The translations under genes were made by a program, and so were the position numbers. A stretch of 64,000 nucleotides of DNA. Source: Pseudomonas sp. sp1636 (GTDB lineage: Bacteria > Pseudomonadota > Gammaproteobacteria > Pseudomonadales > Pseudomonadaceae). Each line of letters starts with the position of its first letter. Within the stretch, counting starts at the first letter, position 1. Of this stretch, positions 8,342 to 24,587 are shown piece after piece. Below the pieces are notes generated by a model. It saw only the letters and a list, made by a program, of their open reading frames with translations. It was not told the origin of the DNA and did no database searches. The DNA lies in assembly GCF_030376615.1 (NCBI RefSeq), contig NZ_JARRAB010000005.1, forward strand, positions 124,001 to 188,000. The letters are read 5' to 3'.

Positions 8342-11188
8342 TCAGGCTTTTTCCAGGGCGGTGTTGAGCGCCGCTTCCAGGCGAGCCTTGTAGCGCAGGT
8401 AGTGAACGGTCTGGGCCCGAGCGTCGCCGAGCACGGCGGACAGGTCGAGGTCGGTGATGTAGCACGGGTAGCGCTCGCCCCCGCGGCGTTGGGCGAGGAT
8501 GTGCCGGGCCACGGCGGCGAACAGGTCGCCGGCATATTCCAGCTCGGAAAATTCACGGTGGTTGCAATACAGGGTCACGTGGGCGCGCTTGCCGTCGACC
8601 GGCTCGACTATCGCCTGCACGTCGTAGAAGGGGTGGCTCACCGGCGCTGCCGGCGGCGGGCGCAGCTCCACCTGGCGGGCGCGCTGCGGCGCCGCCGGCA
8701 GGACTTCGTAATAGAGCACCTCCAGCGCAGTCAGGGGGATCTGGCTGTCCAGCGGCAGCAAGGCATTGCGCCGGTACAGCAGCGATTGGAGGAAGCGCTG
8801 CAGCGGCGTCAGCAGGCTTTGCTCGTCGCGAAACGGCATGCTCTGGCGCCACAGCGCGTTGTGTTCGTCGAGCAGGGTCAGTTCGGCCAGGCCACTGTCT
8901 TCGTGGCGCCGGTAGAACACCTGGATGCACTCGGGGCGGCCGAGCGGCAGGATCAAGGCCAGGTCTTCGCCTTCCAGAGCGTTGCGGTCGAGGCGCAGCA
9001 GGCTGTAGCCAGGTTGCTCCTTGCCGAGGTGTTCGAGCAGCGCCGGCATGCCCGTCAGGGCGGTGTGGCTGACCTGCCCCGGGGTCAGTTCGAGCAGGTG
9101 GTATTGCTGCTTGATTTGCAGCAGGTAGCGGTTGTGTTGCGTACCGGCGAAGTTATCCAGGGTGTCGCGAAACAGTTCCTCGACCCGCTCGGCGATGGTC
9201 GTGGCCCGGTTGCGGCAGAAGCAGCGCACCCGCAGCTTGGGTTTGCTGCCGCTGGCCGGCAGGCTGTTGAGAAAATCGCGCAGGCAGTCGAGCAGGGCAT
9301 GGGGGCCGTCATAGCGGCTGACCAGCAGTTCGTTCCAGCTGTTCAGGTTGACCTGGTCGATGGTCAGCACCAGATTCTCGCGCACCCCGGAATAACCCAA
9401 GGCATCGATTCGCTCGGTGGTCATGTGCACATTCATCTGGCTGTGCTGCTTGAGCGGGTCGATGCCGACATTGACCAATAGCAGCACTTCGCCGGGTACG
9501 CTGGCGCGCAGCAGGGCGCTTTCCTCGATCGCTGGCAGCGGCAGCGGCACCGTCTGTTGCAGGCTGCTCAGCAGGTTGGACAACTCGAACTCGCTCAGGT
9601 CGCTGGCGCCCGGGTGCAGCGACAGCCGCGTGCTGCTGTCGATGACGCCGTTGCGATGGCTCCAGGCGAGCAGCTCGATCAGTTCGCGGGCGCGTTTGAG
9701 CGGGGCGAAATCGGCCCATTCCTGGGCGCCGAGACTGCCGCCAAACAGCGCCCACTGGCTTTCGTTGGGGGTGGGGCAGTGAACCAGGGTCAGGGTGTCT
9801 TCGCCCAGATCCGGGGCGATCCCCGGGTTGATGAATTCGATCTTGCCGGCCTTGCGCTCGAAGGCGGCGTACAGGCGTCGGCCGAGTACCCCGAGGTCGC
9901 GGCTGTTGAGCGAGCTGCCGGCCTGGGCGGCGCGGGCGAATTGGGAGAGGAAGCGGTAGCTGTAGGTCAGTTCGTTGACCAGCGCGCGGCGCTCGGCGTC
10001 GACCTGGCGCACCTTCCACTGGCTGCGGCTGTCGAGCATCGCCAGTTGCCGGCTGTCCCAGTTCCAGTCGCAGGTCAGACGCTCGAGCAGCAGGCGTTGC
10101 CAGCTTTTGCGGCGGTCGCGCGGCGGCCGGCTGAGTTTCTTGTTGATTTTCAGGTACAGGCAGCGGCGGATCAGCTCCAGGCGCTCGGTTTCGCCGCGCC
10201 CGCTCAGGTATTCTTCCAGGCGGCGGTACACCACGATGTAGGGATCGAGTTCGTCGAGGTCGAGGCGATTGCAGAAGACCGCTTGCTTGAGGCGCAGCGC
10301 CAGGCATTGCACCTGGGGGTGTTCGCTGGCGTAAACCTCGGTGAGCAGCAGCTTGAGCACCGACTTGTAAGGGGATTCGATGCCCTTGAACAGCTGCCAC
10401 ATGCCGGCGCCGATGAATTCGCCCGGCGGAATCTGCGCCAGGTGACCGAGGTCGAGCACCTCCTCGGCGCGGATAAAGCGCTTGCTCAGCAGGATGTCGA
10501 TGTAGGCGTGGTAGCGCTGCTCCTCGTACACCGGCACCAGCCACCAGAGCGGGATGCGCCCGGCCAGCCAGATCGCCGTGCGGTAGAACTCGTCGAGCAA
10601 CAGGTAGTGCTGGGTGGTGCCGCAATCGTCCGAGGTCAGCCGCGCCTCGCGGTCGCCGACGCTAAAGCGCAGCGGGTCGATCAGGAAGCAATGCGCTTCG
10701 GCGCCCTGGGTCGCCGCCCAGGCCTCGAGCTGGTCGCACTTCTTGCGCAACTCGGTGAGTTCCTGGGCGCTGAGGTCGGGCGCGTGACACACCCACAGAT
10801 CCATATCGCTTTGCTCGGCCTGGGCCACCGTGCCCAGGCTGCCCATCAGGAACAGCCCATGTATCGGCAGCGCGTTGTTGCCGCGGCGTGCCTTGTAGAC
10901 GAAGGAACGGGTCAGGCGCTGCGCCTCGGCAAGCAGATCGGCGTCGGGCTCGAAGCCGCTCAGCCCGGCCGGCGTCAGCCCGGACACATAACCCGGCAGC
11001 AACGGATGATTGACGTGAAACAGCAGTGGCAGCAACTTCAGAACCGACTGCTGACGGCTCGACAGCGCCTGCATGGCGCGCTGCAGGCGGCCGTCGTTGA
11101 CCTTGAGAAAGCGCGCCCGCAGCTGAGCCAACACCTTGCGGTCGATCCCTTCGTCGATATCCGGGCGGATTTCCTGAGTACGGCTCAT
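8342..11188 (-). CDS. cyaA: Class I adenylate cyclase CyaA
   Basis: This protein of about 948 residues makes cAMP from ATP in the cytosol. The N-terminal catalytic domain carries the class I signature LFLMGSLGTVAQAEQSDMDL, with the metal-binding acidic pair in SDMD near residue 125. It is followed by LLLDEFYRT and IPLWWLVPVYEE and a long C-terminal regulatory region. In P. aeruginosa this enzyme is the minor cyclase beside CyaB. The start MSRTQEIRPDIDEGIDRK at 11188 was chosen by family similarity. The frame extends 9 codons upstream to 11215, and neither start has a strong ribosome binding site. Confidence 0.93.
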   Translation of the reverse strand: MSRTQEIRPDIDEGIDRKVLAQLRARFLKVNDGRLQRAMQALSSRQQSVLKLLPLLFHVNHPLLPGYVSGLTPAGLSGFEPDADLLAEAQRLTRSFVYKARRGNNALPIHGLFLMGSLGTVAQAEQSDMDLWVCHAPDLSAQELTELRKKCDQLEAWAATQGAEAHCFLIDPLRFSVGDREARLTSDDCGTTQHYLLLDEFYRTAIWLAGRIPLWWLVPVYEEQRYHAYIDILLSKRFIRAEEVLDLGHLAQIPPGEFIGAGMWQLFKGIESPYKSVLKLLLTEVYASEHPQVQCLALRLKQAVFCNRLDLDELDPYIVVYRRLEEYLSGRGETERLELIRRCLYLKINKKLSRPPRDRRKSWQRLLLERLTCDWNWDSRQLAMLDSRSQWKVRQVDAERRALVNELTYSYRFLSQFARAAQAGSSLNSRDLGVLGRRLYAAFERKAGKIEFINPGIAPDLGEDTLTLVHCPTPNESQWALFGGSLGAQEWADFAPLKRARELIELLAWSHRNGVIDSSTRLSLHPGASDLSEFELSNLLSSLQQTVPLPLPAIEESALLRASVPGEVLLLVNVGIDPLKQHSQMNVHMTTERIDALGYSGVRENLVLTIDQVNLNSWNELLVSRYDGPHALLDCLRDFLNSLPASGSKPKLRVRCFCRNRATTIAERVEELFRDTLDNFAGTQHNRYLLQIKQQYHLLELTPGQVSHTALTGMPALLEHLGKEQPGYSLLRLDRNALEGEDLALILPLGRPECIQVFYRRHEDSGLAELTLLDEHNALWRQSMPFRDEQSLLTPLQRFLQSLLYRRNALLPLDSQIPLTALEVLYYEVLPAAPQRARQVELRPPPAAPVSHPFYDVQAIVEPVDGKRAHVTLYCNHREFSELEYAGDLFAAVARHILAQRRGGERYPCYITDLDLSAVLGDARAQTVHYLRYKARLEAALNTALEKA

Positions 11189-11308
11189 GCGCAGGCTCGG
11201 CGGGCAATGCGCCAAGACGCTAAGCCGGTCTTGGCGAGGTGCGGATGGGGCGCCTTAGCGCCCACGCGATTGCCCGCTGGCGCAGGCGGCGTGGGCAGTG
11301 GCGGCGGC

Positions 11309-11554
11309 TCAGGCGGTTTCGGTCACATTGAGAATGGTCAGCAAGGATTGCGCATGTTCGGCCGCCTCCAGCCCCAGGCTGGTCAGGTAACCGCCATCTT
11401 CCTGAGTGACCAGGCCTTTGGCGTGCAGACGTTTGGCCGCGGCAATCGCTTGGGGCGCGGCGACATGATGAACCTTGAGGCCTTCCTGGGTGTTGCCCAG
11501 GTTAAACAGGGCGAGAAGATCCAGTTCAGCAACCAACTCAGGGGTAAAGGACAT
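11309..11554 (-). CDS. TIGR02647 family small protein
   Basis: This is an 81-residue soluble protein of the TIGR02647 family, seen in Pseudomonas next to cyaA. It starts MSFTPELVAELDLLALFNL, and the core LHAKGLVTQEDGGYLTSLG looks like a small winged-helix fold. The ATG follows GGAG. A DNA-binding role is suggested by the fold alone; nothing is established. It may be co-transcribed with cyaA, 120 bases downstream. Confidence 0.82.
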   Translation of the reverse strand: MSFTPELVAELDLLALFNLGNTQEGLKVHHVAAPQAIAAAKRLHAKGLVTQEDGGYLTSLGLEAAEHAQSLLTILNVTETA

Positions 11555-11691
11555 AAGTGCTCCAGGCTCTGGTAAACAGGGGCCGGGCAGCGCGTGTGCC
11601 CGACGGGTTGAGTCCCGCGTGGATGAAGCGAGGCGCGGGTGTGTGCAGTGTAGCGAGACGCGCGGTTGCGCGCAGGGCTAAGCGACTAGCG

Positions 11692-11970
11692 TCAGGATGT
11701 TTCGTTAGGCAATTGCGGCAAGGCGCGCAGGGCTTGCTCGTAAGCCGCGCTATCGAATGGTCGATCCTCGTCGAGCATGGCCTTGATCTCATGGGCCAGT
11801 ACCATCGCCATCAGTTGCAAGATTTCTTCCCGCGCGTAACCGACCAGGCTCAGTTTGTTCAGGGTGGCCAGGGTGGCAGGCGGCTCAGCGGTCGCGAGCT
11901 GATTCTCGATGGCCTGGATCAGGGCTTCTTCGGCAAACGCCTCGTCTTCGTTGTCGTCGTGTTCGCTCAT
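11692..11970 (-). CDS. Conserved Pseudomonas hypothetical protein, 92 aa
   Basis: This is a small acidic helical protein. The N-terminus (MSEHDDNEDEAF) is acidic and probably disordered. The rest, LATLNKLSLVGYAREEILQLM and MVLAHEIKAMLDEDRPFD, looks like two or three helices. I recall similar proteins at this place in other Pseudomonas, but no function is known. The start at 11970 was preferred over the in-frame one at 12180, because the upstream extension has no family-like sequence. Confidence 0.72.
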   Translation of the reverse strand: MSEHDDNEDEAFAEEALIQAIENQLATAEPPATLATLNKLSLVGYAREEILQLMAMVLAHEIKAMLDEDRPFDSAAYEQALRALPQLPNETS

Positions 11971-12498
11971 GGTGGGCTTATCCGTGGACTGAGCATGCAG
12001 TGTGCCAGCGCCGAGTCGGCTGCGCCATGCGTCGCTTGGCCGTAGCCAGCCGTGTTGCCGCTCGGCCGGTTTGTCTCGGGCGCTCAGAACCGTCCTGGCC
12101 AGGTACGGTTGGCTCTGCGCAATGGCAAACCGGACGGTAACGATGTTTGCCGCGCGAGGTGCAGTGTTGATCCATGTCAATCTGCCACTACCTGGTGTGC
12201 GGTATTGGTAAGACCGCTAGGGTCACCCTCCACTTAATTAAGCTTTATTGCTCTGGCCTGTGCATGGCCTGTTTCCTCGTGGCCTGAAAGACCGTGAAGA
12301 GGTTCTCGACTGCGGCGACCGTCTCCAGGTGCCTGCTGCTGATGTTGCGCTATGTCAACAATGGGGCCGTTTGGCTCACTAACCCCCCTGGGGTTTGTGT
12401 GGCTCCCGTTCACAACCTTTGAGCGCCATTTGCGGCGAGACGCAAAAACGGAGAACTGTTGATCCTGAAGTTAGAACGTTTTTATGGAGGGCGTCGCC
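11971..12498. other. Divergent intergenic region, 528 bases
   Basis: This lies between the 92-aa gene (minus) and the GGDEF/EAL gene (plus). It contains the palindrome CTTAATTAAG at 12233-12242 in an AT-richer patch, three GGCCTG copies between about 12255 and 12290, and a small hairpin AACCCC-CCT-GGGGTT at 12381-12395. GAGACGCAAAAACGGAG near 12438 faintly recalls part of a GEMM c-di-GMP riboswitch, but no complete fold could be built. No gene was recognised. Confidence 0.4.
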
Positions 12499-15400
12499 AT
12501 GTCGACTGAAGTGGCCGAGGTATGCCCGAAACGGGCATCGAAGAGCCGCTGGCTACGGATCAATGTCAACCAGAAAATGGTGATCAATTTTCTGCTGATA
12601 TTGCTGGTCGCCGCCGCCAACGTGAGCGTGGTGCAAACGATGCTGCGCGACCTCAAGGGGGTGGCGGAGACGGTTGGCCAAGCCGGCAAGTTGCGTGTGT
12701 TGAGTCAGAAAATCGCCTTCGAAACCAGCCTGGTGTTACGCCTGGAAGGGCACAAGCAAGAGCAGGCCATCGCCACCATTGACGCCTTCGAAATGCATTT
12801 GAGTGGCCTGGAGCGGGGCGACAACGTATTCGGCCATAACGCCATGACCTTATCGACCCAGATAACCCCGCTGGTGGCGTCGATCCGGCCGAAGTGGCAC
12901 TCCTATCGCAGTCACATCGAATCTCTTCTCGAAATGCGCACCCCCGCTGGGGAGGTGGCCGCCGAGTTGGGTCGCGTCCACGCCGAGGCGGGGCAACTGC
13001 TGGGAATTGCCGAGGCGATTGTTGAGGCGCTGACCATTGAGGCGCAGCAAACCCAAGAACGCGGCCTGCAGGAGGTCTATGCGCTGCTGGTGGTGGATGT
13101 GCTGGTGCTGTTCGGGATTTTCCTGCTTGCCCGCAAACAGATTGTCCACCCGCTGCGCGACCTGGCCCGGTACAGCCGGAGGCTCGGTGCGGGGGATTAC
13201 CGCGTGCGCTCGAATTTTCGCGGCACTGATGAAATCGGCGAGTTGGCCGCTGCCTTCAATTTCAGTGCGCAGCAGATTGAAGAATTGATTACCAGCATCG
13301 ACCTCGATCGGCACCGATTACGGCGGGCAGAGTCGATCTTCCGGGGGCTCGCGGAAAACTCGGTGGTGGGCGTGTACATCGTCCAGGAGCACAGGTTCCA
13401 ATACGTCAATCTGAAAATGGCCGAGATGTTCGCCTATAGCCAAGGCGAAATGATCGCCTCGCTGGGCGTTCTCGACATCGCCAGCGAGGCCGATCGCAGT
13501 CTGGTTGAATCGAATATCCAGAAACGCCTGTTCGGCGAAGCCCGTGCGGTCAACTACGAAATGCGAGGCCGGAAAAAGGATGGCTCAACCTTTGATGTAG
13601 AAGTGTTTGGCTCGAAGATGGACGTCGACGGCAAGACCGCCACGATCGGCATCATGCTCGACATCACCGAGCGCAAGCGGGTCGAGCGCGCGTTGAAGGT
13701 GTTAAGCGCGTGCAATCAGGCGCTGATTCGCGCCACCGACGAGTCTGCGTTGCTTACCGAAATTTGCGGCATCGTCCAGCAGCTAAGCGGGCATCCCTTT
13801 GTCTGGGTCGGTTATGCCGATGATGAGGCGAGCAAGTTGGTGCGACCCGCGGCCAAGAAGGAGGCGGTGGCCGGGGCGCTGCCCTTCACGGCCGGCGAGT
13901 TGAGTTGGGATGATTCGGCGCGTGGCAGCGGCGTTACCGGAACCGCGATCAGAACCGGGCGCACCGCCGTTGTGAAATACGGGCAAAACAATCTGCAGTA
14001 TCCGCCGTGGCGTGATTTTCTGATCGAGCATGGCATCCAGTCGGGCATGGCGTTGCCGCTGATAACGGAACGCAAGGTGATTGGTGCGCTGACCATCTAT
14101 GCGCAGGACGCCGCGGCCTTTACCGCCAGTGAAATCAGGGTAGTGGAGGAACTGGCCGGCAGTTTGGCTTACGGCATTACCGCGTTGCGGGCTAATTGCG
14201 CCCGCCAGCACTACGCGCAACAACTCATGCATCAGGCCACGCACGACGTGCTGACCGGCTTGGCCAACAGAAGCTTGCTGAGCGACCGGATCAAGCAGGC
14301 GATCGCCTCGGCAGAGCGTAGCGGGCGGGCGGCAGCCTTGTTGTTGCTCGACCTCGACTGCTTCAAGGTGATTAACGACAGCCTGGGTCATCCGGCCGGC
14401 GATGCATTGTTGCAGGCCGTCGCCGAGCGCCTGTGTTCCCTGGTGCGCAAAGCCGACACGGTGGCGCGTTTGGGCGGCGACGAGTTTGTCATCGTGCTTC
14501 CCGGTCTGGTGAAAGTGGCGGATGCCAGTCTGGTCGCGGGAAAGATCCTGAGTGCGCTTGCCAACCCCTTTGTGATCGACCGCCAGGAGTTGCATATCGG
14601 GGTCAGCATCGGCATCAGCCTCTATCCCCAGGACGGTACGCACGAGGAGGTGTTGCTGAAAAATGTCGACTTGGCCATGTACCGGGCCAAGTTCGAAGGA
14701 CGCAATAAGTTCCACTTCTATACGGAAGAATTGAATATCCATAGCCGGGAACGGCTGGCGCTGGAGTCCGACCTGCGCGGTGCCCTGGAGCGCGGTGAAC
14801 TGCTGCTGCATTACCAACCGCAAGTGGCCCTGCACAGCGGCGAGATCGTCGGCGTCGAGGCCCTGCTGCGCTGGCAGCACCCCGCGCGGGGGATTCTGGC
14901 GCCCGCGCAGTTCATTCCCATCGCCGAGGAGAGCGGACTCATTATTCCGCTTGGCGCCTGGGCGATTAAGACCGCCTGTGCCCAGCAGCGGGCTTGGCGG
15001 GAGGCAGGACTACCCCCGCTCAGGGTCGCGGTGAATATTTCCGCGCATCAGTTCCGCCGCCACGACCTGCTCGCCGTGGTGGCAGAGGCGTTGCAAGAAA
15101 CCGCGATGGAAGCCCGTTATCTGGAGTTGGAACTCACCGAAACCGCGATCATGCAGGAGCCGGAAAAGGCCATCCCCGTTCTGTTGGAGTTAAAGGCGCT
15201 GGGCCTGCACCTCGCCCTGGATGATTTCGGCATGGGTTACTCCTCACTCAACTACCTGCGCCAGTTTCCGCTGGATGTTCTGAAAATAGATCGATCCTTT
15301 GTCAACGATCTGACGTCGAGCACGCCCGGCGCAAGCATTGTCAAAACCATTATTTCGCTGGCCCACAGCCTGGATCTGAAGGTGATTGCCGAAGGCGCGG

Positions 15401-17448: not shown

Positions 17449-19554
17449 TCAGAAGCGGTAGTTGAGACCCACGCCCAGGCTGCGGCCATTGCCGGAGAGG
17501 AAGGTCGGCTGGTTGGCGTTGGCACGATTGCGGATCACGAAGCTGCTGGCGTAGACCTCGTCGCTGAGGTTCTCACCCTGCAGATAGAGGCTTAGCTGCT
17601 CATCGGCCCGGTACTCGACCTTGAAGCCCCACAGGGCGTAGGCGTCCTGATAGTTGTCGGCCGTGTTGGCATGGTCGGTCGGGGTGTCCCGGGGTATCCA
17701 GCGCAGGTTGGGGCCGGCGCTCCAGGCGCCGCTGCGGTAGAGCAGCTCGCCGCCGAGCACCTGGCGCGGCACGCCGGCGATGCGCTTGCCGGCGAACTCG
17801 CCGCCGCGGAAGCGGAAATCGCTCAGGGTCCAGGCCAGGCGATAGGCGAACTCGCCGGGTGCGACCGCCAGGTTCAGCCCCGGCAGGGTGCCGCTGAGGC
17901 CGAACTCGATGCCCTGGTGGCGGGTGCGGCTGGCGTAGTTGTAGGTGCCCACCTTGACCCCCAGGCTGTCGCTGGTGGAAATCAGCTCGTCGTCGACCTC
18001 GCTGCGGTACAGCGCCAGGCTCCAGGCGCTGGTGCCGAGGCGACCCTGGCCGCCGACCTCGACGGTTGTGGCGCGCTGCACATCGAGCTGCACCAGTTCG
18101 GCGCGGGCCATGGCCGGATTGGCCGGCGACACCGTGCCGCTGACGATTTCCCAGAAGGTCGGCGCCTCGTGGCTGCGGCTGATATTGGCGTACCAGCGCT
18201 GCGCCGGGGTTGGCGTCCAGTTCACCCCGAGCTTGGGCGTGAAGTAGTTCCAGTCCTGATCCAGCCGGGGACCCGCATTGGCCGAACGCGCATCGCGGCG
18301 CACGGCGCTCCACTTGGTCTCGGCGACCAGGGTCCAGTCGCTCGCCAAGTGCCAATCCAGTCCGGCGAGCAGGTCGCGGTTCTCCGCCGCCAGGTCGAAG
18401 TCGCCGTAGCGCTGCAGGCGCCGGCCATCCTGCGGGCTGTTGGCGTACAACTCGCGGGCCATGTCGCTGTGCGACCAGCCGAGGCCCAGGCGGTAGTCCA
18501 GGCTTTGCCAGCTGCCATCGAGCTGCCATTGCGCGCCCAGGGTCTCGCTGGCGGTCAGGGTGTGGCTGAGCGGGTCGGTGAAGTCGTCGTCGGTGTGCTG
18601 GGCATAGACGCCGAACCCCTGGCGCAGGCGCTCGTCGCCCCATTGCGTGCGGTTGGCGATGCGCAGCTGCTGGGTGTCGCGGTGCGGGTCGCGGCGGTAG
18701 ACGTTGAGCAGCTTGTCTTGTGGCGAGTTGCCGTCGCCCAGGACGCTGCGCGGATCGTCTTCCAGACGGGCCTTGGGGATGACGTTGGGGACCTCGAAGG
18801 TCAGGTCGCTCCAGGACAGGTAGCTGCGGTTCTCGATGCCATCGGCCAGGCGCAGGCCGAAGTTGCTCTGCACGATGCTGCGATGCGAGGCGGAGTGGTG
18901 GCGGTAGCCATCGTACTGATCCTGGCTGACGCTGACCCGTCCATCCAGGTCGCCCTGCTGCATGCCGGCCGCGGCCTGCAGGCCATAACGGCCGAAGCTG
19001 CCGGCGTCCAGGCGCAGGCGGGCGCTTTCGTCGGCGCCGGTCAGCGACTGCAGGTCCAGCTCGCCGCCCAGGGTGGTGGCGCCGGGGCTGGTCGCATTGG
19101 CACCGCGGCGGGCACTGATCAGGGCGCTGTTGCGCGGTTCCAGCAGGCCGATGACGAAGGAACCGTCGGCCTCGTTGAGCGGCAGGCCGTCCTGGAGCAA
19201 TAGCACGCCACGGTTGAGCGGATTGCTCTGGATGCCCGAGCCGCGGATGTTCAGGCGCGGCTGGTCGGTGGCGCCGAAGAAGTCCTGGATGACGATGCCC
19301 GGCTGGTAGTCCAGCGCATCGCGCAGGGTGGCCAGGCGGGTTTCCCGCTGCGGCTCGGCCAGGTTGGTGGCGCCCGGCACGCGCGCCAGGCGTCGGCGTT
19401 CCTGCTCGAGCGAGGCGCCGAGCGGGGCCGCCTGACGCTGGCCGCTGACGGTCATGGCGTCCAGCACCGTGATATCGGCGGCCAGCGCCATGCACGGCAG
19501 CGCCGCGGACAAGGCCAGGCTGAGTGCGGTTCTGGGCAGAGCGGGATGGGACAT
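17449..19554 (-). CDS. TonB-dependent outer-membrane receptor
   Basis: This 701-residue receptor imports an unknown substrate across the outer membrane using TonB energy. A signal peptide ends near residue 25 (CMALAADI). A TonB-box-like segment, ITVLDAMTVSG, follows. The plug domain (about 70-185) shows ALDYQPGIVIQ, PRLNIRGSGI and LLLQDGLPLNEADG. The rest is beta-barrel, ending in the typical GVGLNYRF. There is no N-terminal signalling domain, and I see no cluster of His or Met that would point to copper. It is the last gene of a five-gene operon with an ABC importer, 34 bases after the 4-TM gene, so receptor and importer likely act on one substrate. Confidence 0.9.
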   Translation of the reverse strand: MSHPALPRTALSLALSAALPCMALAADITVLDAMTVSGQRQAAPLGASLEQERRRLARVPGATNLAEPQRETRLATLRDALDYQPGIVIQDFFGATDQPRLNIRGSGIQSNPLNRGVLLLQDGLPLNEADGSFVIGLLEPRNSALISARRGANATSPGATTLGGELDLQSLTGADESARLRLDAGSFGRYGLQAAAGMQQGDLDGRVSVSQDQYDGYRHHSASHRSIVQSNFGLRLADGIENRSYLSWSDLTFEVPNVIPKARLEDDPRSVLGDGNSPQDKLLNVYRRDPHRDTQQLRIANRTQWGDERLRQGFGVYAQHTDDDFTDPLSHTLTASETLGAQWQLDGSWQSLDYRLGLGWSHSDMARELYANSPQDGRRLQRYGDFDLAAENRDLLAGLDWHLASDWTLVAETKWSAVRRDARSANAGPRLDQDWNYFTPKLGVNWTPTPAQRWYANISRSHEAPTFWEIVSGTVSPANPAMARAELVQLDVQRATTVEVGGQGRLGTSAWSLALYRSEVDDELISTSDSLGVKVGTYNYASRTRHQGIEFGLSGTLPGLNLAVAPGEFAYRLAWTLSDFRFRGGEFAGKRIAGVPRQVLGGELLYRSGAWSAGPNLRWIPRDTPTDHANTADNYQDAYALWGFKVEYRADEQLSLYLQGENLSDEVYASSFVIRNRANANQPTFLSGNGRSLGVGLNYRF

Positions 19555-19588
19555 GAGGGACTCCAGGTAACGGCGAAAGGGAGACGGA

Positions 19589-20032
19589 TCACCAGCTCAG
19601 GTAGAACATGCCCTTGGCCAGCAGGACGATGCCGACCATGTGGCTGAATACGCTGAGGTGGATGCGGCGGAAGTAGCGCGAATTCATGCGCCCGCTCCAC
19701 AGCAGGAACATGGCGCTGAAGAAGTGCCCGAGCACGCTGCAGGCGAGGAGGATTTTCAGGGTCAACAGGGTGGCGAAGGAGGATGCCAGCGGCGCGCTCA
19801 AGGCCGGCCAGTAGCGCAACCAGACCATGCCCAGGCCGGCGGCGAACAGCACCAGCAGAACCCAGGGCATCAATCGCCGGGCGCGCCGGCCGATGCCCTG
19901 CTCGACTAGGCGCATCACCTCGGCCGGCACATGCTTGCGCACGCTTTCCAGGATCAGCACCTCGAAGAACACCGTGCCGATGAACAGCAGTGCGGCGAAC
20001 AGGTGCAGGGTGTGCAGGATCGGGTAACTCAT
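19589..20032 (-). CDS. Four-TM inner-membrane protein, CopD/DUF2269-like
   Basis: This is a 147-residue protein with about four membrane helices. Histidines sit at the start of helix 1 (ILHTLHLFA), in helix 3 (LGHFFSAMF) and in helix 4 (FSHMVG), as in CopD-like and cytochrome b561-like small proteins that may hold haem or copper. The start overlaps the stop of the ATPase gene (ATGA), so it belongs to the ABC/TonB operon. Its role there is not known; metal or haem handling is inference. The longer open frame upstream lies inside the ATPase gene and is not used. Confidence 0.75.
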   Translation of the reverse strand: MSYPILHTLHLFAALLFIGTVFFEVLILESVRKHVPAEVMRLVEQGIGRRARRLMPWVLLVLFAAGLGMVWLRYWPALSAPLASSFATLLTLKILLACSVLGHFFSAMFLLWSGRMNSRYFRRIHLSVFSHMVGIVLLAKGMFYLSW

Positions 20033-20730
20033 GAGGGGTTCGACTCCAGGTTCAGCAGGACGCTTTGCAGGTTGTTGGCGGTCGCGCGGCGCGCCTCGGC
20101 ATCGCCGGGTGCGGCGATGCCGAAGCCGCGTCCCCGGCCGCTGTCGAGCAGCACGCAGCGATCGACCAATTCGATCAATTCGTGGGGGTGATGGCTGACG
20201 CACAGCAGCGTCGCGCCGGTGTGTTCCAGGCCCTCGCGGCACAATTGGGTCAGCGCGCCGCGCAACGCCGGGTCGAGGGCGCTGAAGGGTTCGTCGAGCA
20301 GCAGCAGCTCCGGCTGCACGGCGAAGGCCCGGGCCAGCGCCACACGCTGCGCCATGCCACCCGACAGCTGGCCCGGCCAGGCCTGGGCGTACTGCTCCAG
20401 GCCGACCCGTTGCAGCCAGTGCAGGGCCAGCCGGCGCGCCGCAGCGGCGCCGTGGCCGACCGCGCGCAGGGGGATCTCCAGGTTCTCGCCGACCCGGCAC
20501 CAGGGCAGCAGGCGCGGTTCCTGGAACACCAGCACGACGTGGTGGAAGTCGCTGCGGCACTGCCCGCCCTGGGCCGGCAGCAGCCCGGCGATCAGCTTCA
20601 GCAGGCTGCTCTTGCCGGCGCCGCTGGGGCCGAGGATGCCGACCCGCTCGCCGGCCTCCAGGCGCAGGTCGAAACCGTCCAGCACCGGCCGGCCGCCCAG
20701 CTGCAGGTGGACGTCGCGATAATCAAGCAT
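20029..20730 (-). CDS. ABC transporter ATP-binding protein (SsuB/TauB type)
   Basis: This 233-residue ATPase belongs to the nitrate/sulfonate/taurine importer class. Walker A is GPSGAGKSS (34-42), the Q-loop is VFQEPRLLPW (68-77), the signature is LSGGMAQRVALARA (122-135), Walker B is LLLLDEPFSALDP (142 onward), and the H-loop is CVSHHPHE. It overlaps the permease gene by 8 bases and the 4-TM gene by 4, so the operon is tightly coupled. The family class does not fix the substrate. Confidence 0.9.
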   Translation of the reverse strand: MLDYRDVHLQLGGRPVLDGFDLRLEAGERVGILGPSGAGKSSLLKLIAGLLPAQGGQCRSDFHHVVLVFQEPRLLPWCRVGENLEIPLRAVGHGAAAARRLALHWLQRVGLEQYAQAWPGQLSGGMAQRVALARAFAVQPELLLLDEPFSALDPALRGALTQLCREGLEHTGATLLCVSHHPHELIELVDRCVLLDSGRGRGFGIAAPGDAEARRATANNLQSVLLNLESNPS

Positions 20731-21496
20731 GGGCGGGTACCTGCCAGCGGCTCAGGTAACGCTGCAAGGGCTGCAGCAGGCTGAACTCCAGCCCGGCCAC
20801 CAGCAGCAGGAGCAGCAGGGTCCAGGCATACAAGCCGGCGCTGTCGAAGGTGCTGCGGGCATTGGCCAGGGCGAAGCCGGCGCCGCTGTCGGCGCCCAGC
20901 ACTTCGGCCATCACCACCAGGCGTACCCCGCCGCAGGCGGCGATCAACAGGGCGGCGGTCAGGGGCGCGGCCAGCGCCGGCACGTACAGATGGCGCAGCC
21001 GCTGCCAGGGGCCGAGACGATAGACATGGGCCATCTCGATCAGGCTGCGATCCACCAGCAGCATGCCCTTGACCGTGTTCACGTACATCCCCGGCGCCAG
21101 CATCAGCACGCTGATGAACACCACCATCGCCGAACCGAGGCCGAACCAGAGCATCGCCAGCACTACTACCACCACCGGCGGAACCGCCATCAGCAACCAG
21201 CGCAGCGGCTCCAGCAGACCGCGCAGGCGCGCATCCAGACCGGCCAGCACGCCGAGGCAGAAACCCAGGGTGCAGCCCAGGCCGACGCCCAGGCCGATGC
21301 GCCCCAGGCTGACCAGCCCATGCTGGTGAAACTCCTCGCTGCCGAGCAGTTGCACCAGCGCCTGCAGGGTCTGCCAGGGGGTGGCCATCAGCAGGGTGCC
21401 GAGGCGTTGCGCGGTGAGCTGCCAGGCGATCACCAGCAACAGCACGCCGAGGACGGCCCAGTAGCGCGAGGTGGGGCGTTGTCTCTGCAGTTTCAT
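20723..21496 (-). CDS. ABC transporter permease (SsuC/TauC type)
   Basis: This 257-residue inner-membrane permease has about six helices. The ATPase-contact EAA-like loop is visible as EMAHVYRLGPWQRLRHLYVP. The start at 21496 overlaps the stop of the substrate-binding protein gene by 4 bases, which selects it over the long upstream frame lying inside that gene. It forms the import channel with the following ATPase. Confidence 0.88.
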   Translation of the reverse strand: MKLQRQRPTSRYWAVLGVLLLVIAWQLTAQRLGTLLMATPWQTLQALVQLLGSEEFHQHGLVSLGRIGLGVGLGCTLGFCLGVLAGLDARLRGLLEPLRWLLMAVPPVVVVVLAMLWFGLGSAMVVFISVLMLAPGMYVNTVKGMLLVDRSLIEMAHVYRLGPWQRLRHLYVPALAAPLTAALLIAACGGVRLVVMAEVLGADSGAGFALANARSTFDSAGLYAWTLLLLLLVAGLEFSLLQPLQRYLSRWQVPAHA

Positions 21497-22509
21497 GGCC
21501 CGTAGAACTCCGCCGCGGGCAGGCGGCCGCCGATGGCCTGCGGGTTGTGCTCGCCGAGCAGCCGATACAGCGCTTCCAGCTGTCCGCGCACTTCGTGGGC
21601 CGGGCGACTGTCCAGGCGGGTGGCGCGGATCGAGGCGGCGATGGCCGCTACCGGCAGATGCGGCAGATGGCGCTGCACCAGTTCGGCGCAGGCCTGCGGA
21701 TCGCCCGCGCACCAGCGCGCCGAGTGGCCATAGGCGCGTTCCACGGCTTGGCTCAGCTCGAGCTTGCGCGCGGCGCGCGCGCTGGCCATCAGGCCTGCCT
21801 GGGGCAGCTCCGGTTGTTCGGGGAAGGCCTGATTCCAGGCGGCCTCCAGGCTCTGCGCGCGGTACAGCGGCGCGCCGCCCTGCTGTTGGTTGCGCCACAG
21901 CAGCAGCGACACCGCCGGCTCGACCAGCAGCACGTGGTCGGCCTGCCCGGCCAGCAGCAGCGCCTGCGCATCCTGGCTGTCGCGCACATGGCGCAGGCGC
22001 AGATCCTCGCCGGCCCGCAGGCCATGGGCGCGCAGCAGTTCGTTGACCAGCAACGCCGGCAGGTCGCGCTGATAGGGCAGCAGCAATTCCTTGCCTGCCA
22101 GGTCGGCGAAGCCCTTGATCTGCGGATCGCGGCTGACCAGCCAGAGGATGCCCCACACCGAGATGCTCAACAGGCGCACCGGCTGGCCGCGGTTGGCCAG
22201 CAGCGCCGGCAGGTTGCTCGGCGCCGCGGTGAAATCGATGGCGTCGTTGGCCAGCAATGCGCCCAGCTGATCCGGGTTCTGCCAGAGGCGGAACTCGACG
22301 CGCTCGGCGAACTCGGCCAGTGCCCCGCTGTCGACCATGTGCAGCAGCGGGAAGCTCACCACCGCGGCCGGACCGGCCAGGCGCACGACCTCTTCGCGCG
22401 GCGGGGTGGCGCTGCCGTGCAGGCTAAGGGAGATGAGCAGCAGCCCGGTTGCGCCGAGGAGCAGACGACGAACCGGATTGATGTTAATGCGAACTAGACT
22501 TATCTTCAT
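21493..22509 (-). CDS. ABC transporter substrate-binding protein (TauA/NMT1-like)
   Basis: This 338-residue periplasmic protein starts MKISLVRININPVRR and has a hydrophobic signal segment to about residue 34. The mature part has the TauA/SsuA/NMT1-like pattern. This includes VSFPLLHMVDSG near the start, DAIDFTAAPSNLPALLANRG, and a central DLAGKELLLPYQRDLPALLVN. The ligand cannot be told from sequence. It is the first gene of the five-gene minus-strand operon, with only 34 bases between its start and that of the divergent regulator. Confidence 0.82.
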   Translation of the reverse strand: MKISLVRININPVRRLLLGATGLLLISLSLHGSATPPREEVVRLAGPAAVVSFPLLHMVDSGALAEFAERVEFRLWQNPDQLGALLANDAIDFTAAPSNLPALLANRGQPVRLLSISVWGILWLVSRDPQIKGFADLAGKELLLPYQRDLPALLVNELLRAHGLRAGEDLRLRHVRDSQDAQALLLAGQADHVLLVEPAVSLLLWRNQQQGGAPLYRAQSLEAAWNQAFPEQPELPQAGLMASARAARKLELSQAVERAYGHSARWCAGDPQACAELVQRHLPHLPVAAIAASIRATRLDSRPAHEVRGQLEALYRLLGEHNPQAIGGRLPAAEFYGP

Positions 22510-22542
22510 TCGCAAATATTCGCAGCCGTCACGGGATTCGCA
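22488..22542. promoter_or_regulatory. Cluster of TTCGCA half-sites in a divergent promoter
   Basis: TTCGCA occurs at 22509-22514, 22519-22524 and 22537-22542, and its inverse TGCGAA at 22488-22493. That is four copies in 55 bases, two of them exactly 10 bases apart. The cluster spans the 34-base gap between the importer operon and the Crp/Fnr regulator and runs into the first codons of the substrate-binding gene. It may be the operator of that regulator. The classical TTGAT-N4-ATCAA box is not present; only one half (TTGAT at 22478-22482) was seen. Confidence 0.45.
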
Positions 22543-22543
22543 C

Positions 22544-23257
22544 ATGACAAATATCAAGTCGCCGGCTAACCGGCTCGACGCCCTGAAGCTGTTGCGCGCC
22601 CATGCATTCTTCGCCGATTTGCCCGAAGCGCTGTTCGCCCCGCTGCTCAGCCCGCGGGGCCGGCAGGAGGTGGCGGGCGGCGAACTGCTGTTCCGCGAAG
22701 GCGATCGCGCCGGGCACTGCCTGCTGGTGCAGCACGGCTGCGTCGAGCTGTTCAGGTTCACCGCCGATGGCGAGGAGCGGGTGTTCCAGCTGTTCGGCAG
22801 CGGGCAACTGGTCGGCGATGCCGCGATGTTCATGGCCCACGGCCGCTACCCGATGAACGCCAGGGCACAATCCACCACAGTGGCCTACCGCTTGAGCCGC
22901 ACGGCCTTGCGCAGTGCCTGCGAACAGTATCCGCCGCTGGCCATGCGCCTGCTGGAAAGCCTCGGCCAGCGCCTCTATCGGCAGGTCAATGAAGTCGACT
23001 GGCTCACCTCCAGCTCGGCCGCGCAGCGGCTGGCGGCCTACTTGCTGAACCTGCAACGCAGCCAGGGCGCCGCCATCGGCCTGCCGATCAATCAGCGCCA
23101 GTTGGCCGCCCACCTGGGCATCCGTGCGGAGTCGCTGAGTCGGCTGTTTTCCGAATGGCAGCAGCGCGGCCTGGTGCGGGGGCGCCAGCGCGCCTGGGAG
23201 CTGTGCGACCTCGGTTATCTGCAGCAGTTGGCGCAAGGCGCCACGCGCTCCTTCTGA
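22544..23257 (+). CDS. Crp/Fnr-family transcription regulator, DNR-like
   Basis: This 237-residue regulator has an N-terminal cyclic-nucleotide-type sensory domain (about 20-135, with GELLFREGDRAGHCLLVQHG), a long dimerisation helix (RLYRQVNEVDWL) and a C-terminal helix-turn-helix (QRQLAAHLGIRAESLSRLFSEW). There is no N-terminal cysteine cluster, so it is not an Fe-S FNR/ANR. The segment AAMFMAHGRYPMNARAQ resembles the P. aeruginosa NO-responsive regulator DNR. Divergence from the ABC/TonB operon and the nearby nnrS suggest it controls both. The NO response is inference. The longer frame from 22337 runs through the divergent gene and was rejected. Confidence 0.85.
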   Translation: MTNIKSPANRLDALKLLRAHAFFADLPEALFAPLLSPRGRQEVAGGELLFREGDRAGHCLLVQHGCVELFRFTADGEERVFQLFGSGQLVGDAAMFMAHGRYPMNARAQSTTVAYRLSRTALRSACEQYPPLAMRLLESLGQRLYRQVNEVDWLTSSSAAQRLAAYLLNLQRSQGAAIGLPINQRQLAAHLGIRAESLSRLFSEWQQRGLVRGRQRAWELCDLGYLQQLAQGATRSF

Positions 23258-23311
23258 GGCCGTGCCGGCTGGTGTCGCGGCACCCCCAACGTGCGCTCAA
23301 TCATCAAAAGC

Positions 23312-23410
23312 ATCGCGCCGGGGCGGCCCTCCTACAAAAGCAGCGGGCACCACAAATCCCTGTAGGAGGCGCGACCTCGCGGCGATAGCGGACAACGTCC
23401 GCTCCCACGG
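23312..23410. repeat. REP-type repeat cluster
   Basis: At least two, probably three, Pseudomonas REP-like units are present. One is TGTAGGAGGCGCGACCTCGC at 23361-23380 on the plus strand. An inverted partner (CCTCCTACAAAAG, 23328-23340) and a third unit reading GTGGGAGCGGACGTTGTCC on the minus strand end near 23408. They fill the convergent gap between the regulator gene and nnrS and may act in 3'-end stabilisation or termination. Confidence 0.7.
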
Positions 23411-23432
23411 AAAGCGACAGATGATCCGTTTC

Positions 23433-24587
23433 TCAGCGCTCCGCCAAGCTGCAGCGCGGGCTGGCGGGATGGGCATCGCGGCTCTGCCAGAGCAGCACCG
23501 CGAGTGCCAGATAGGCCAGCGCCCAGCAAGTCGCGGCGAACAGCAACCAGCCCTGCTGCTCCAGGCCCAGCAGTGGCGGCAGCACCCGGGCCAGTGCGGC
23601 CAGGCTGAGCAGCAGAGCCAGCGGATGGATCCAGCGCCGGGCGTTGGCGTCGCGGAAGCGATAGATCAGCCGGGTGCGCGCCATTACCGCAAAGGTCAGG
23701 CTGCCCAGCGCGCCGATGCTCAGGGCGTGCAACGTTGCCGTCACCGGCAGCGCTGACAGCAGCCTGCTCAGCCCGAACAGCAGCAGACCGATGGCGAGCC
23801 AGGCGTAGCCGAGCAGCAGAACCAGCAGATCCACACGTTTGCCGCAATGCCAGGGTTGCCAGCGCAGCAGGCGGATCGCCGCGAGTATGCTGGCGGCGAC
23901 CAGCAGCCCGCCAACCAGAGGTTCGAGCAGTGGCCAGGGCGGCAGGTTGAACAGCAGAGCGAGCAACAGCAGGATCAACCCGGCGCCTTCGAGCTGCGGT
24001 TGTACGCGTGCCGCCAGCTGACGTCCCTCGCTCTGCGCATGCCCGGCAAGCGCCGGAGCGATGATCCGCCCCCCCATGAAGAACAGCAGCACGGCGATCA
24101 GCAGCAGGGCTTCACTCAGCAGGGGCAGGGCGAGGGGCTGGCTGAAGCCGCTGCTGGCGACGGCACTGAGCAGGCTCAGGCCGGCGACGACCGGGGCGAC
24201 GATCTGGTTGCGCCATTTCTTCGCGGCGCCGAGAAAGCGCGGCACGACCTTCCAGGCCAACCCGGCGCCGAACAGCGCGGCGCTCAGCAGTGTCAGCCAG
24301 GATCCCGGCCAGAGCAGGAAGCCGAGGCGCGCCAGTAGCCAGCAGCCGAGCAGGGCGAGGGTCAGGCGCATCGGCTGCGGGCCGAGCAGGTAGCCGGCAA
24401 TTACCGCCAGGGCGAAACCGAAGAGCATTTCATGGGCATGTCCGGCCGGGGTGGCCAGCCCGGGCAGAACGGGGACCAGGCCGAGCATGGTCAACACCGA
24501 CCAGGGTAGCAGCAGCGCCGCATAGAGTGCGGCCGCGGGAAAGAACCAGGCGTTGGCGAAGGGCAGGCGCGGTTTTCGCGGGTGCAT
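23433..24587 (-). CDS. nnrS: NnrS family haem/copper-type membrane protein
   Basis: This is a 384-residue membrane protein with about 12 helices. The NnrS family hallmarks are visible: PAGHAHEMLFGFALAVIAGYLL near residue 45, then LHALSIGALGSLTFAVMARTRL late in the protein. NnrS proteins bind haem and copper and protect against nitric oxide stress; they usually lie under NO-responsive Crp/Fnr regulators. The start MHPRKPRLPF at 24587 has GGAG 7 bases upstream. It lies 58 bases downstream of argH on the same strand and converges on the DNR-like regulator. The symbol follows the family name. Confidence 0.88.
   Translation of the reverse strand: MHPRKPRLPFANAWFFPAAALYAALLLPWSVLTMLGLVPVLPGLATPAGHAHEMLFGFALAVIAGYLLGPQPMRLTLALLGCWLLARLGFLLWPGSWLTLLSAALFGAGLAWKVVPRFLGAAKKWRNQIVAPVVAGLSLLSAVASSGFSQPLALPLLSEALLLIAVLLFFMGGRIIAPALAGHAQSEGRQLAARVQPQLEGAGLILLLLALLFNLPPWPLLEPLVGGLLVAASILAAIRLLRWQPWHCGKRVDLLVLLLGYAWLAIGLLLFGLSRLLSALPVTATLHALSIGALGSLTFAVMARTRLIYRFRDANARRWIHPLALLLSLAALARVLPPLLGLEQQGWLLFAATCWALAYLALAVLLWQSRDAHPASPRCSLAER

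Follow-up and report, generated by a model that had tools for sequence, protein, structure and literature searches.

A conserved TonB/ABC import operon of Pseudomonas linked to nitric oxide respiration and iron

What is carried into the cell by an importer that stands among genes of the nitric oxide (NO) response? The question is raised by a stretch of 64,000 nucleotides from Pseudomonas sp. sp1636 (contig NZ_JARRAB010000005.1, positions 124,001 to 188,000; hereafter the window), in which an operon for a TonB-dependent outer-membrane receptor and an ATP-binding cassette (ABC) importer resembling TauABC lies next to a gene for a DNR-like regulator and to nnrS. The module is a real, conserved import system tied to NO respiration and iron. 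As to what it imports, we give about an even chance to the reading that the operon responds to iron and to NO/anoxia and imports haem or a haem-like or other aromatic iron chelate.

The genes of the operon overlap or abut on the minus strand in the order substrate-binding protein (SBP), permease, ATPase, a membrane protein with four transmembrane helices (4-TM protein) and TonB receptor. SBP and permease genes share 4 bp, permease and ATPase genes 8 bp, and ATPase and 4-TM genes 4 bp, while 34 bp separate the 4-TM gene from the receptor gene. A gap of likewise 34 bp lies between the SBP start and the divergent Crp/Fnr gene. An earlier note, made from the sequence alone, had described this layout of five coupled genes, a divergent DNR-like regulator gene and nnrS, and its coordinates were borne out:

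17449..19554, minus strand: TonB-dependent receptor, 701 amino acids (aa), with plug and barrel (Pfam)
19589..20032, minus strand: 4-TM membrane protein, 147 aa, with conserved histidines and no Pfam or NCBIfam match
20029..20730, minus strand: ABC ATPase (PF00005), nearest NCBIfam models those of taurine and sulfonate transporters, under cut-off
20723..21496, minus strand: ABC permease (PF00528), nearest NCBIfam models SaoP/SsuC, all under cut-off
21493..22509, minus strand: SBP, 338 aa, clade A of its family, with SsuA/NrtA/PqqT-like fold
22495..22513, minus strand: weak Fur-like sequence overlapping the SBP start codon
22544..22557, minus strand: FNR/DNR-like box overlapping the regulator start codon
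22544..23257, plus strand: DNR-like regulator of the Crp/Fnr family, divergent, with cNMP-binding and Crp helix-turn-helix domains (Pfam) and without N-terminal iron–sulphur cysteines
23433..24587, minus strand: NnrS-family protein (PF05940, E 1.8e-52), argH next

This arrangement is not a product of chance, since the gene order of the window is repeated in Pseudomonas borbori, with proteins 89–96% identical, and the operon is seen again in many further taxa. Within the genus sample, SBP homologues of at least 42% identity occur in 6 of 199 genomes, the window's own included, and eight more genomes with only weak SBP matches (25–30%) were scored as negative. Beyond the genus, one genome per species was scanned and 287 relatives were found, the best 80 of which were used. 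Loci were tallied from a hidden Markov model (HMM) map, in which the ATPase enters no count, and the clade tallies cover loci with at least 4 kb of downstream sequence, 8 of 48 clade-B and 1 of 36 clade-A loci being excluded.

A tree built from dereplicated SBPs puts the window in clade A (24 members, support 1.0), whose loci have a Crp gene and then, in order, the genes of SBP, permease, ATPase, 4-TM protein and TonB receptor. Of 35 clade-A loci, 29 have the 4-TM gene, at least 25 the window-type Crp/Fnr gene (counting high-scoring frames only) and 18 a globin-DUF1971 gene. The sister clade B includes Stutzerimonas, Thauera, Azonexus, Comamonas and Arcobacteraceae, and here NnrS is encoded in 39 of 40 loci (24 of 25 once dereplicated). 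An adjacent nnrS is typical of clade B and not of the window's clade A: the gene immediately after that of the ATPase is nnrS in clade B and in other proteobacterial relatives, and is the 4-TM gene in clade A. The pairing of a TauABC-type importer with its own TonB receptor, which the earlier note had called unusual, turned out to be common in this family: 33 of 35 clade-A loci have a PqqU-like receptor, and 24 of 40 clade-B loci have one of three other types. FeoB and SLAM are encoded in four and seven of these 40 loci, respectively. Individual loci depart from the pattern. Two Alcaligenaceae loci (L040 and L041) hold clade-A SBP, permease and ATPase genes with Crp and globin genes, the 4-TM and TonB genes being absent nearby, and in Stutzerimonas kunmingensis (L090, about 10900–13500) the permease match falls into two pieces about 1.2 kb apart, a 610-aa open frame, perhaps an insertion, having been called between SBP and ATPase.

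The link to NO and denitrification proposed in the earlier note is upheld by neighbouring genes (for NnrS, globin, YtfE and DNR-like proteins), by FNR/DNR-like boxes in the family and by the suggested check of co-occurrence with nirS, nirK and nosZ. At least one of NirS, NirK and NosZ is encoded in 51 of 56 SBP-bearing genomes versus 52 of 185 genomes of the window's class, figures to be read with the composition of both sets in mind: the 56 genomes (47 picked from 78 non-duplicate loci plus 9 others) span several classes and are not a random sample, because they were picked and are rich in Achromobacter, other Alcaligenaceae and Stutzerimonas, and the baseline is drawn from the window's own class and includes four genomes carrying an SBP relative. 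Among the 56, NosZ is found in 40 (E ≤ 1e-80; 32 over the cut-off), cytochrome d1 in 26 and NirK in 31 (over the cut-off); at the same thresholds the 185 class genomes yield 29, 32 and 12, respectively. Within the genus sample, NosZ accompanies the SBP in 4 of 6 positive genomes versus 24 of 193 others (p 0.004, relatedness ignored).

A second line of evidence comes from promoters. Of 55 dereplicated loci, two that lacked gene calls (L028 and L029) and a short one (L082) were dropped, leaving a set of 52, in which the window is represented by its near relative, the P. borbori locus L023; the controls were other upstream regions of the same loci, which are still related to one another. Fur boxes of the 7-1-7 type with at least 11 of 14 matching positions stand upstream of 19 of 52 loci versus 28 of 539 control upstream regions and 9 of 1040 shuffles, and FNR/DNR boxes with at least 9 of 10 positions likewise upstream of 19 of 52 loci versus 24 of 539 controls and 12 of 1040 shuffles. 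These counts are probably lowered, since some SBP starts were guessed by length and a few upstream windows are probably misplaced. Perfect boxes of both kinds occur in eight Stutzerimonas-type loci (L086–L088, L090, L091, L096, L098 and L100), and strong Fur boxes are found in relatives only. As both boxes overlap coding sequence in the Pseudomonas loci, their conservation there is not independent evidence.

As the earlier note had proposed, the regulator resembles DNR and lacks the cysteines of an iron–sulphur cluster: its best solved relative is Pseudomonas aeruginosa DNR (3dkw, 87 bits), and its first cysteine is residue 59, so that no N-terminal cluster of such cysteines is present, which together place it with DNR by sequence. 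With haem-dependent NO sensing of the DNR kind in view, two histidines were compared across 43 aligned rows: H20, which aligns with position 14 of the DNR chain, is retained in 19 and H190 in 22.

Evidence on the cargo comes from receptors and binding proteins. Two clade-B receptor types have the haem receptor as their best model (251 and 202 bits, below the cut-off of 316.85), and one of them, searched against the PDB, finds PhuR first, with ShuA and then the copper receptor OprC behind; both results liken the family to TonB-dependent haem uptake of the PhuR/ShuA type. Unlike such systems, the family has NnrS in the operon (clade B). The inner-membrane ABC transporter of those systems is of the BtuCD-like HmuUV/PhuUV type, and the ABC proteins of the window's family are instead TauABC-like. 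The receptors of alpha-proteobacterial ABC-NnrS operons join the window's receptor family, at 412–487 bits with the clade-A profile and 32–35% identity.

For the SBP, the AlphaFold2 model is confident (predicted local distance difference test, pLDDT, 93.8) and has an SsuA-like periplasmic-binding fold, as a structural comparison suggested in the earlier note made plain; among solved structures 3hn0 comes first (Z 30.8), and PqqT with pyrroloquinoline quinone (PQQ; Z 26.3–26.7), 3un6 and SsuA (Z 26.1) follow, tied at 26–27. By sequence, the SBP stays under the Pfam cut-offs for NMT1 (17.9 vs 20.5) and Phosphonate-bd (23.9 vs 27) and scores 26.8 bits against the SsuA_fam cut-off of 163.5; the ABC proteins of the window are far under the cut-offs of the NCBIfam taurine, sulfonate and nitrate transport models. 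With every curated model under its cut-off, membership among sulfonate or nitrate importers was rejected. Among the residues invariant in the family alignment are D149, E197 and the tryptophans W76, W119, W225 and W266; these six may line the pocket, and a planar ligand would be in keeping with them.

For the family, we favour haem over any other single ligand. In the window's operon a PQQ-like compound or another aromatic iron chelate might be carried as well; the range is wider here because the clade-B receptors are of the haem type, but the window's receptor is nearest to PqqU. The earlier idea of a haem-type or chelate cargo thus holds in so far as Fur-like boxes, clade-B receptors and haem/iron islands in the family point that way, and is weakened, for the window's operon, by that likeness to PqqU.

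NnrS is the other protein that calls for a role; we know of no biochemical job established for it. The window's copy scores 179.4 bits against a PF05940 gathering score of 28, and window-type NnrS (E ≤ 1e-60) occurs in 2 of 199 genus genomes, the window's own and P. borbori, both times beside this operon. The genome has a further SBP, 42% identical to the first, which is encoded on another contig and followed in the same direction by permease, ATPase and nnrS genes, this nnrS scoring 258 bits with PF05940. Just past it, on the opposite strand, lies a Crp/Fnr gene that, like the window's, has DNR as its best relative in the PDB (86 bits), and beyond that a TonB receptor gene whose best model is for haem/hemoglobin (223 bits, cut-off 317). 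Further on, the region encodes SLAM and a protein resembling SLAM-dependent lipoproteins, which scores 74 bits with that model (cut-off 80). The same set of haem-type TonB, SLAM-dependent-lipoprotein-like and SLAM genes (L003:3441–9475) is also found beside the copy in two further genomes of the genus (L026 and L027), which recalls SLAM-dependent haemophores; as the sole PDB match of the lipoprotein-like protein is transferrin-binding-protein-like (E 5e-4), that term is used by analogy only, and the name 'hemophilin' found no backing in the PDB. The genome also carries two nosZ genes over the cut-off and three cytochrome-d1 matches on one contig.

In the 4-TM protein, H10 and H125 are invariant and H103 and H131 nearly so among 34 sequences. 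Its structure model consists of four helices (pLDDT 90), for which Foldseek returned nothing from the PDB at E ≤ 0.001. The window protein has no Pfam match at E ≤ 0.01, HemJ and CopD included, and one homologue has sub-threshold similarity to CopD (E 0.005) and to DUF2269 (E 0.009). One paralogue in the same genome, 81% identical, is encoded directly downstream of another nnrS (365 bits), where a YtfE-type gene (ScdA_N plus hemerythrin) and a norR that exceeds its cut-off are neighbours; another, 53% identical, adjoins a hemN that likewise exceeds its cut-off.

Taken together, these components would make up a complete Gram-negative uptake path, with a TonB outer-membrane receptor, a periplasmic SBP, an ABC importer of the NitT/TauT type and a histidine-bearing 4-TM protein in the inner membrane. 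The DNR-like regulator most likely turns the operon on under NO exposure or anoxic respiration, and Fur would add induction under iron limitation, at least in relatives. The cargo, most likely haem, a haem-like compound or another aromatic iron chelate, would be a source of haem and iron for the enzymes of denitrification and NO detoxification, whose cofactors are damaged by NO, and NnrS and the 4-TM protein may take charge of the imported cofactor, or of its NO adduct, at the inner membrane. A stronger form of this proposal, which we offer tentatively and consider rather unlikely, is that the family is an undescribed class of haem or haem-like import in which a TauABC-type importer delivers to NnrS (in clade A, to the 4-TM protein) as inner-membrane cofactor acceptor under the joint control of iron and NO; the role of NnrS would then be cofactor trafficking and not NO sensing.

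Several observations weigh against import of haem or an aromatic iron chelate under NO and iron control. The window receptor's PDB sequence relatives at E ≤ 0.001 are YncD/PqqU alone (E 3e-25 and 4e-25), and with the haem-receptor model TIGR01785 it scores 64 bits, far from the cut-off given above; the sole convincing PDB relative of the SBP by sequence, 3hn0, is titled 'Nitrate transport protein', and we know of no ligand for any SBP of this family. In the window the FNR/DNR-like box matches only 8 of 10 consensus positions (the best of 60 shuffles reaches 7) and overlaps coding sequence, and the Fur-like site, at 11 of 19, is no better than chance, as shuffles reach 12. Split by clade, FNR/DNR boxes are mostly a clade-B signal (16 of 31 loci, versus 3 of 21 in clade A) and the Fur boxes are shared (12 of 31 and 7 of 21). 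None of NirS, NirK and NosZ was found at the thresholds in 5 of the 56 SBP-bearing genomes (G015, G130, G586, G590 and G597), and family members in Clostridia and Parabacteroides have neither TonB nor NnrS annotated nearby. Lastly, the earlier note had named a cluster occurring mainly without DNR or NnrS as the case that would speak against its idea. For NnrS in clade A this is what we found, with nnrS within 6 kb of 2 of 35 loci and missing from the other 33; the Crp/Fnr and globin counts of clade A and the near-constant NnrS of clade B stand on the other side.

Of the other explanations, a copper-chelate importer feeding NosZ, NirK or NnrS in denitrification appears unlikely. It would account for the 40 genomes with NosZ, for the weak CopD likeness of one 4-TM homologue and for the clade-B match to OprC, and NnrS itself contains haem and copper according to PMC10256816; yet the OprC match ranks behind PhuR and ShuA, haem and iron genes are among the neighbours, and supply of copper to NosZ is weakened by the Fur-like boxes and by the 16 SBP-bearing genomes, out of 56, in which NosZ is absent at E ≤ 1e-80. 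An importer of PQQ or a PQQ-like quinone cofactor, which we hold to be improbable, would agree with the YncD/PqqU kinship of the receptor, with PqqT as the best SBP fold match that has a ligand in its title and with the four invariant tryptophans, which are compatible with a planar aromatic ligand. The likeness to PqqU/PqqT ends there, however: the receptor scores 116.4 bits against the 1200-bit cut-off of the PqqU equivalog NF041535, PqqT is absent from the SBP profile search of the PDB at E ≤ 0.01 and its Z score is tied with those of SsuA and 3un6, the clade-B receptors are of the haem type, and the setting is one of NO and iron, to neither of which, as NO or Fur, do we know of a PQQ tie.

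A cargo derived from NO, i.e. an iron-nitrosyl complex or nitrosated chelate accepted by NnrS, would suit the close linkage to NnrS and the pairing of Fur-like with FNR/DNR-like boxes, as well as the relief of iron-NO complex stress by Vibrio cholerae NnrS (as cited in PMC10256816), but the haem-type receptors and haem-use genes at several loci favour haem itself, and we see little probability in it. Least credible, and in our judgement very improbable, is ordinary uptake of sulfonate or taurine (TauABC/SsuABC) or of nitrate with accidental TonB and NnrS neighbours. The family does share with NitT/TauT-type importers (SsuABC, TauABC and NrtABC) the SBP fold (SsuA/NrtA-like, Z about 25–26) and the single permease and single ATPase gene, both resembling parts of taurine and sulfonate transporters. 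It differs in scoring far under the curated cut-offs, in having its own TonB receptor at most loci and NnrS or the 4-TM gene in the operon, and in its Fur- and FNR/DNR-like boxes; moreover, no sulfonate-oxidising gene was found in the window operon or in representatives of the 10 of 42 recurrent neighbour clusters scanned. One Azospirillum region does have an annotated tauD, at a distance of about 8.5 kb.

Import of haem or an aromatic iron chelate, the reading we prefer, would bear on what is known of NnrS. Rodionov et al. (2005) placed NnrS under NsrR, DNR, NnrR or NorR together with denitrification genes (PMC1274295, main text), and the NnrS of the window's family likewise keeps company with DNR-like regulator genes, FNR/DNR-like boxes and denitrification genes. 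The words 'ABC transporter', 'TonB' and 'taurine' occur nowhere in that main text (supplements and figures lie outside this statement), and an importer partner of NnrS is therefore not described there under those words. Nor did we find a description of the ABC-NnrS module in the literature searched, which included few subscription papers. NnrS is widespread in NO-exposed bacteria, and the operon offers a route to its role: with NnrS as a near-constant gene of a TonB/ABC operon in clade B, identification of one ligand could answer the question of the 'NO stress protein'. If that ligand is haem or an iron chelate, iron supply would be linked to denitrification, and TauABC-type importers would be able to take up iron cofactors.

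Relatives on plasmids show the same association. NnrS is detected by HMM in 14 of 19 plasmid regions, and in all 12 annotated ones among these 14 its gene follows that of the ATPase; the unannotated copies from Paracoccus denitrificans and Neisseria were read by HMM alone. Among 45 plasmid records matching at least 65% of the NnrS of an Agrobacterium operon, at least 43 also hold an SBP within about 6 kb, although many are near-identical strains and the query itself was taken from such an operon. With the second NnrS of the window genome as query, one Paracoccus yeei record has no SBP among the matches listed. The distance can be larger: NnrS and SBP are about 12 kb apart in Diaphorobacter, and for a second NnrS of Allorhizobium the distance is about 10 kb.

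The wider neighbourhoods contain genes of both kinds. On the side of NO, the family's neighbours encode globin-DUF1971, YtfE, NnrS, NnrU, Nap proteins, pseudoazurin and Rrf2 regulators; one plasmid NO/nitrate island carries nap and NnrU genes, another pseudoazurin, NnrU and a second NnrS, and a Clostridia member is flanked by hcp and hemerythrin genes. Iron and haem genes are found in Cereibacter (hutW, hutX, iron ABC genes and FeoA), Nitratiruptor (ferritin, imelysin, FTR1 and a Fur-family repressor) and Bartonella (an iron ABC system), and several NnrS-bearing regions have no annotated iron gene apart from the TonB receptor. On a Parabacteroides plasmid with a 3hn0-like SBP, neither NnrS nor TonB is among the 18 annotated features, and a ferritin-like gene lies about 6 kb away.

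A few records deserve mention in their own right. On a Pseudomonas nitroreducens plasmid (L123) a relaxase gene is annotated directly after the permease gene, and ATPase, 4-TM and TonB genes are not among the annotated features of the stretch shown. A Neisseria gonorrhoeae record of 2.17 Mb (L133), chromosome-sized yet filed as a plasmid, contains a distant SBP-permease-ATPase set, downstream of which NnrS is matched weakly (70 bits). Finally, CP070277.1, labelled Dysgonomonadaceae, may be mislabelled, being of the same size as Martelella NZ_CP066787.1 and, like it, of cold seep origin.

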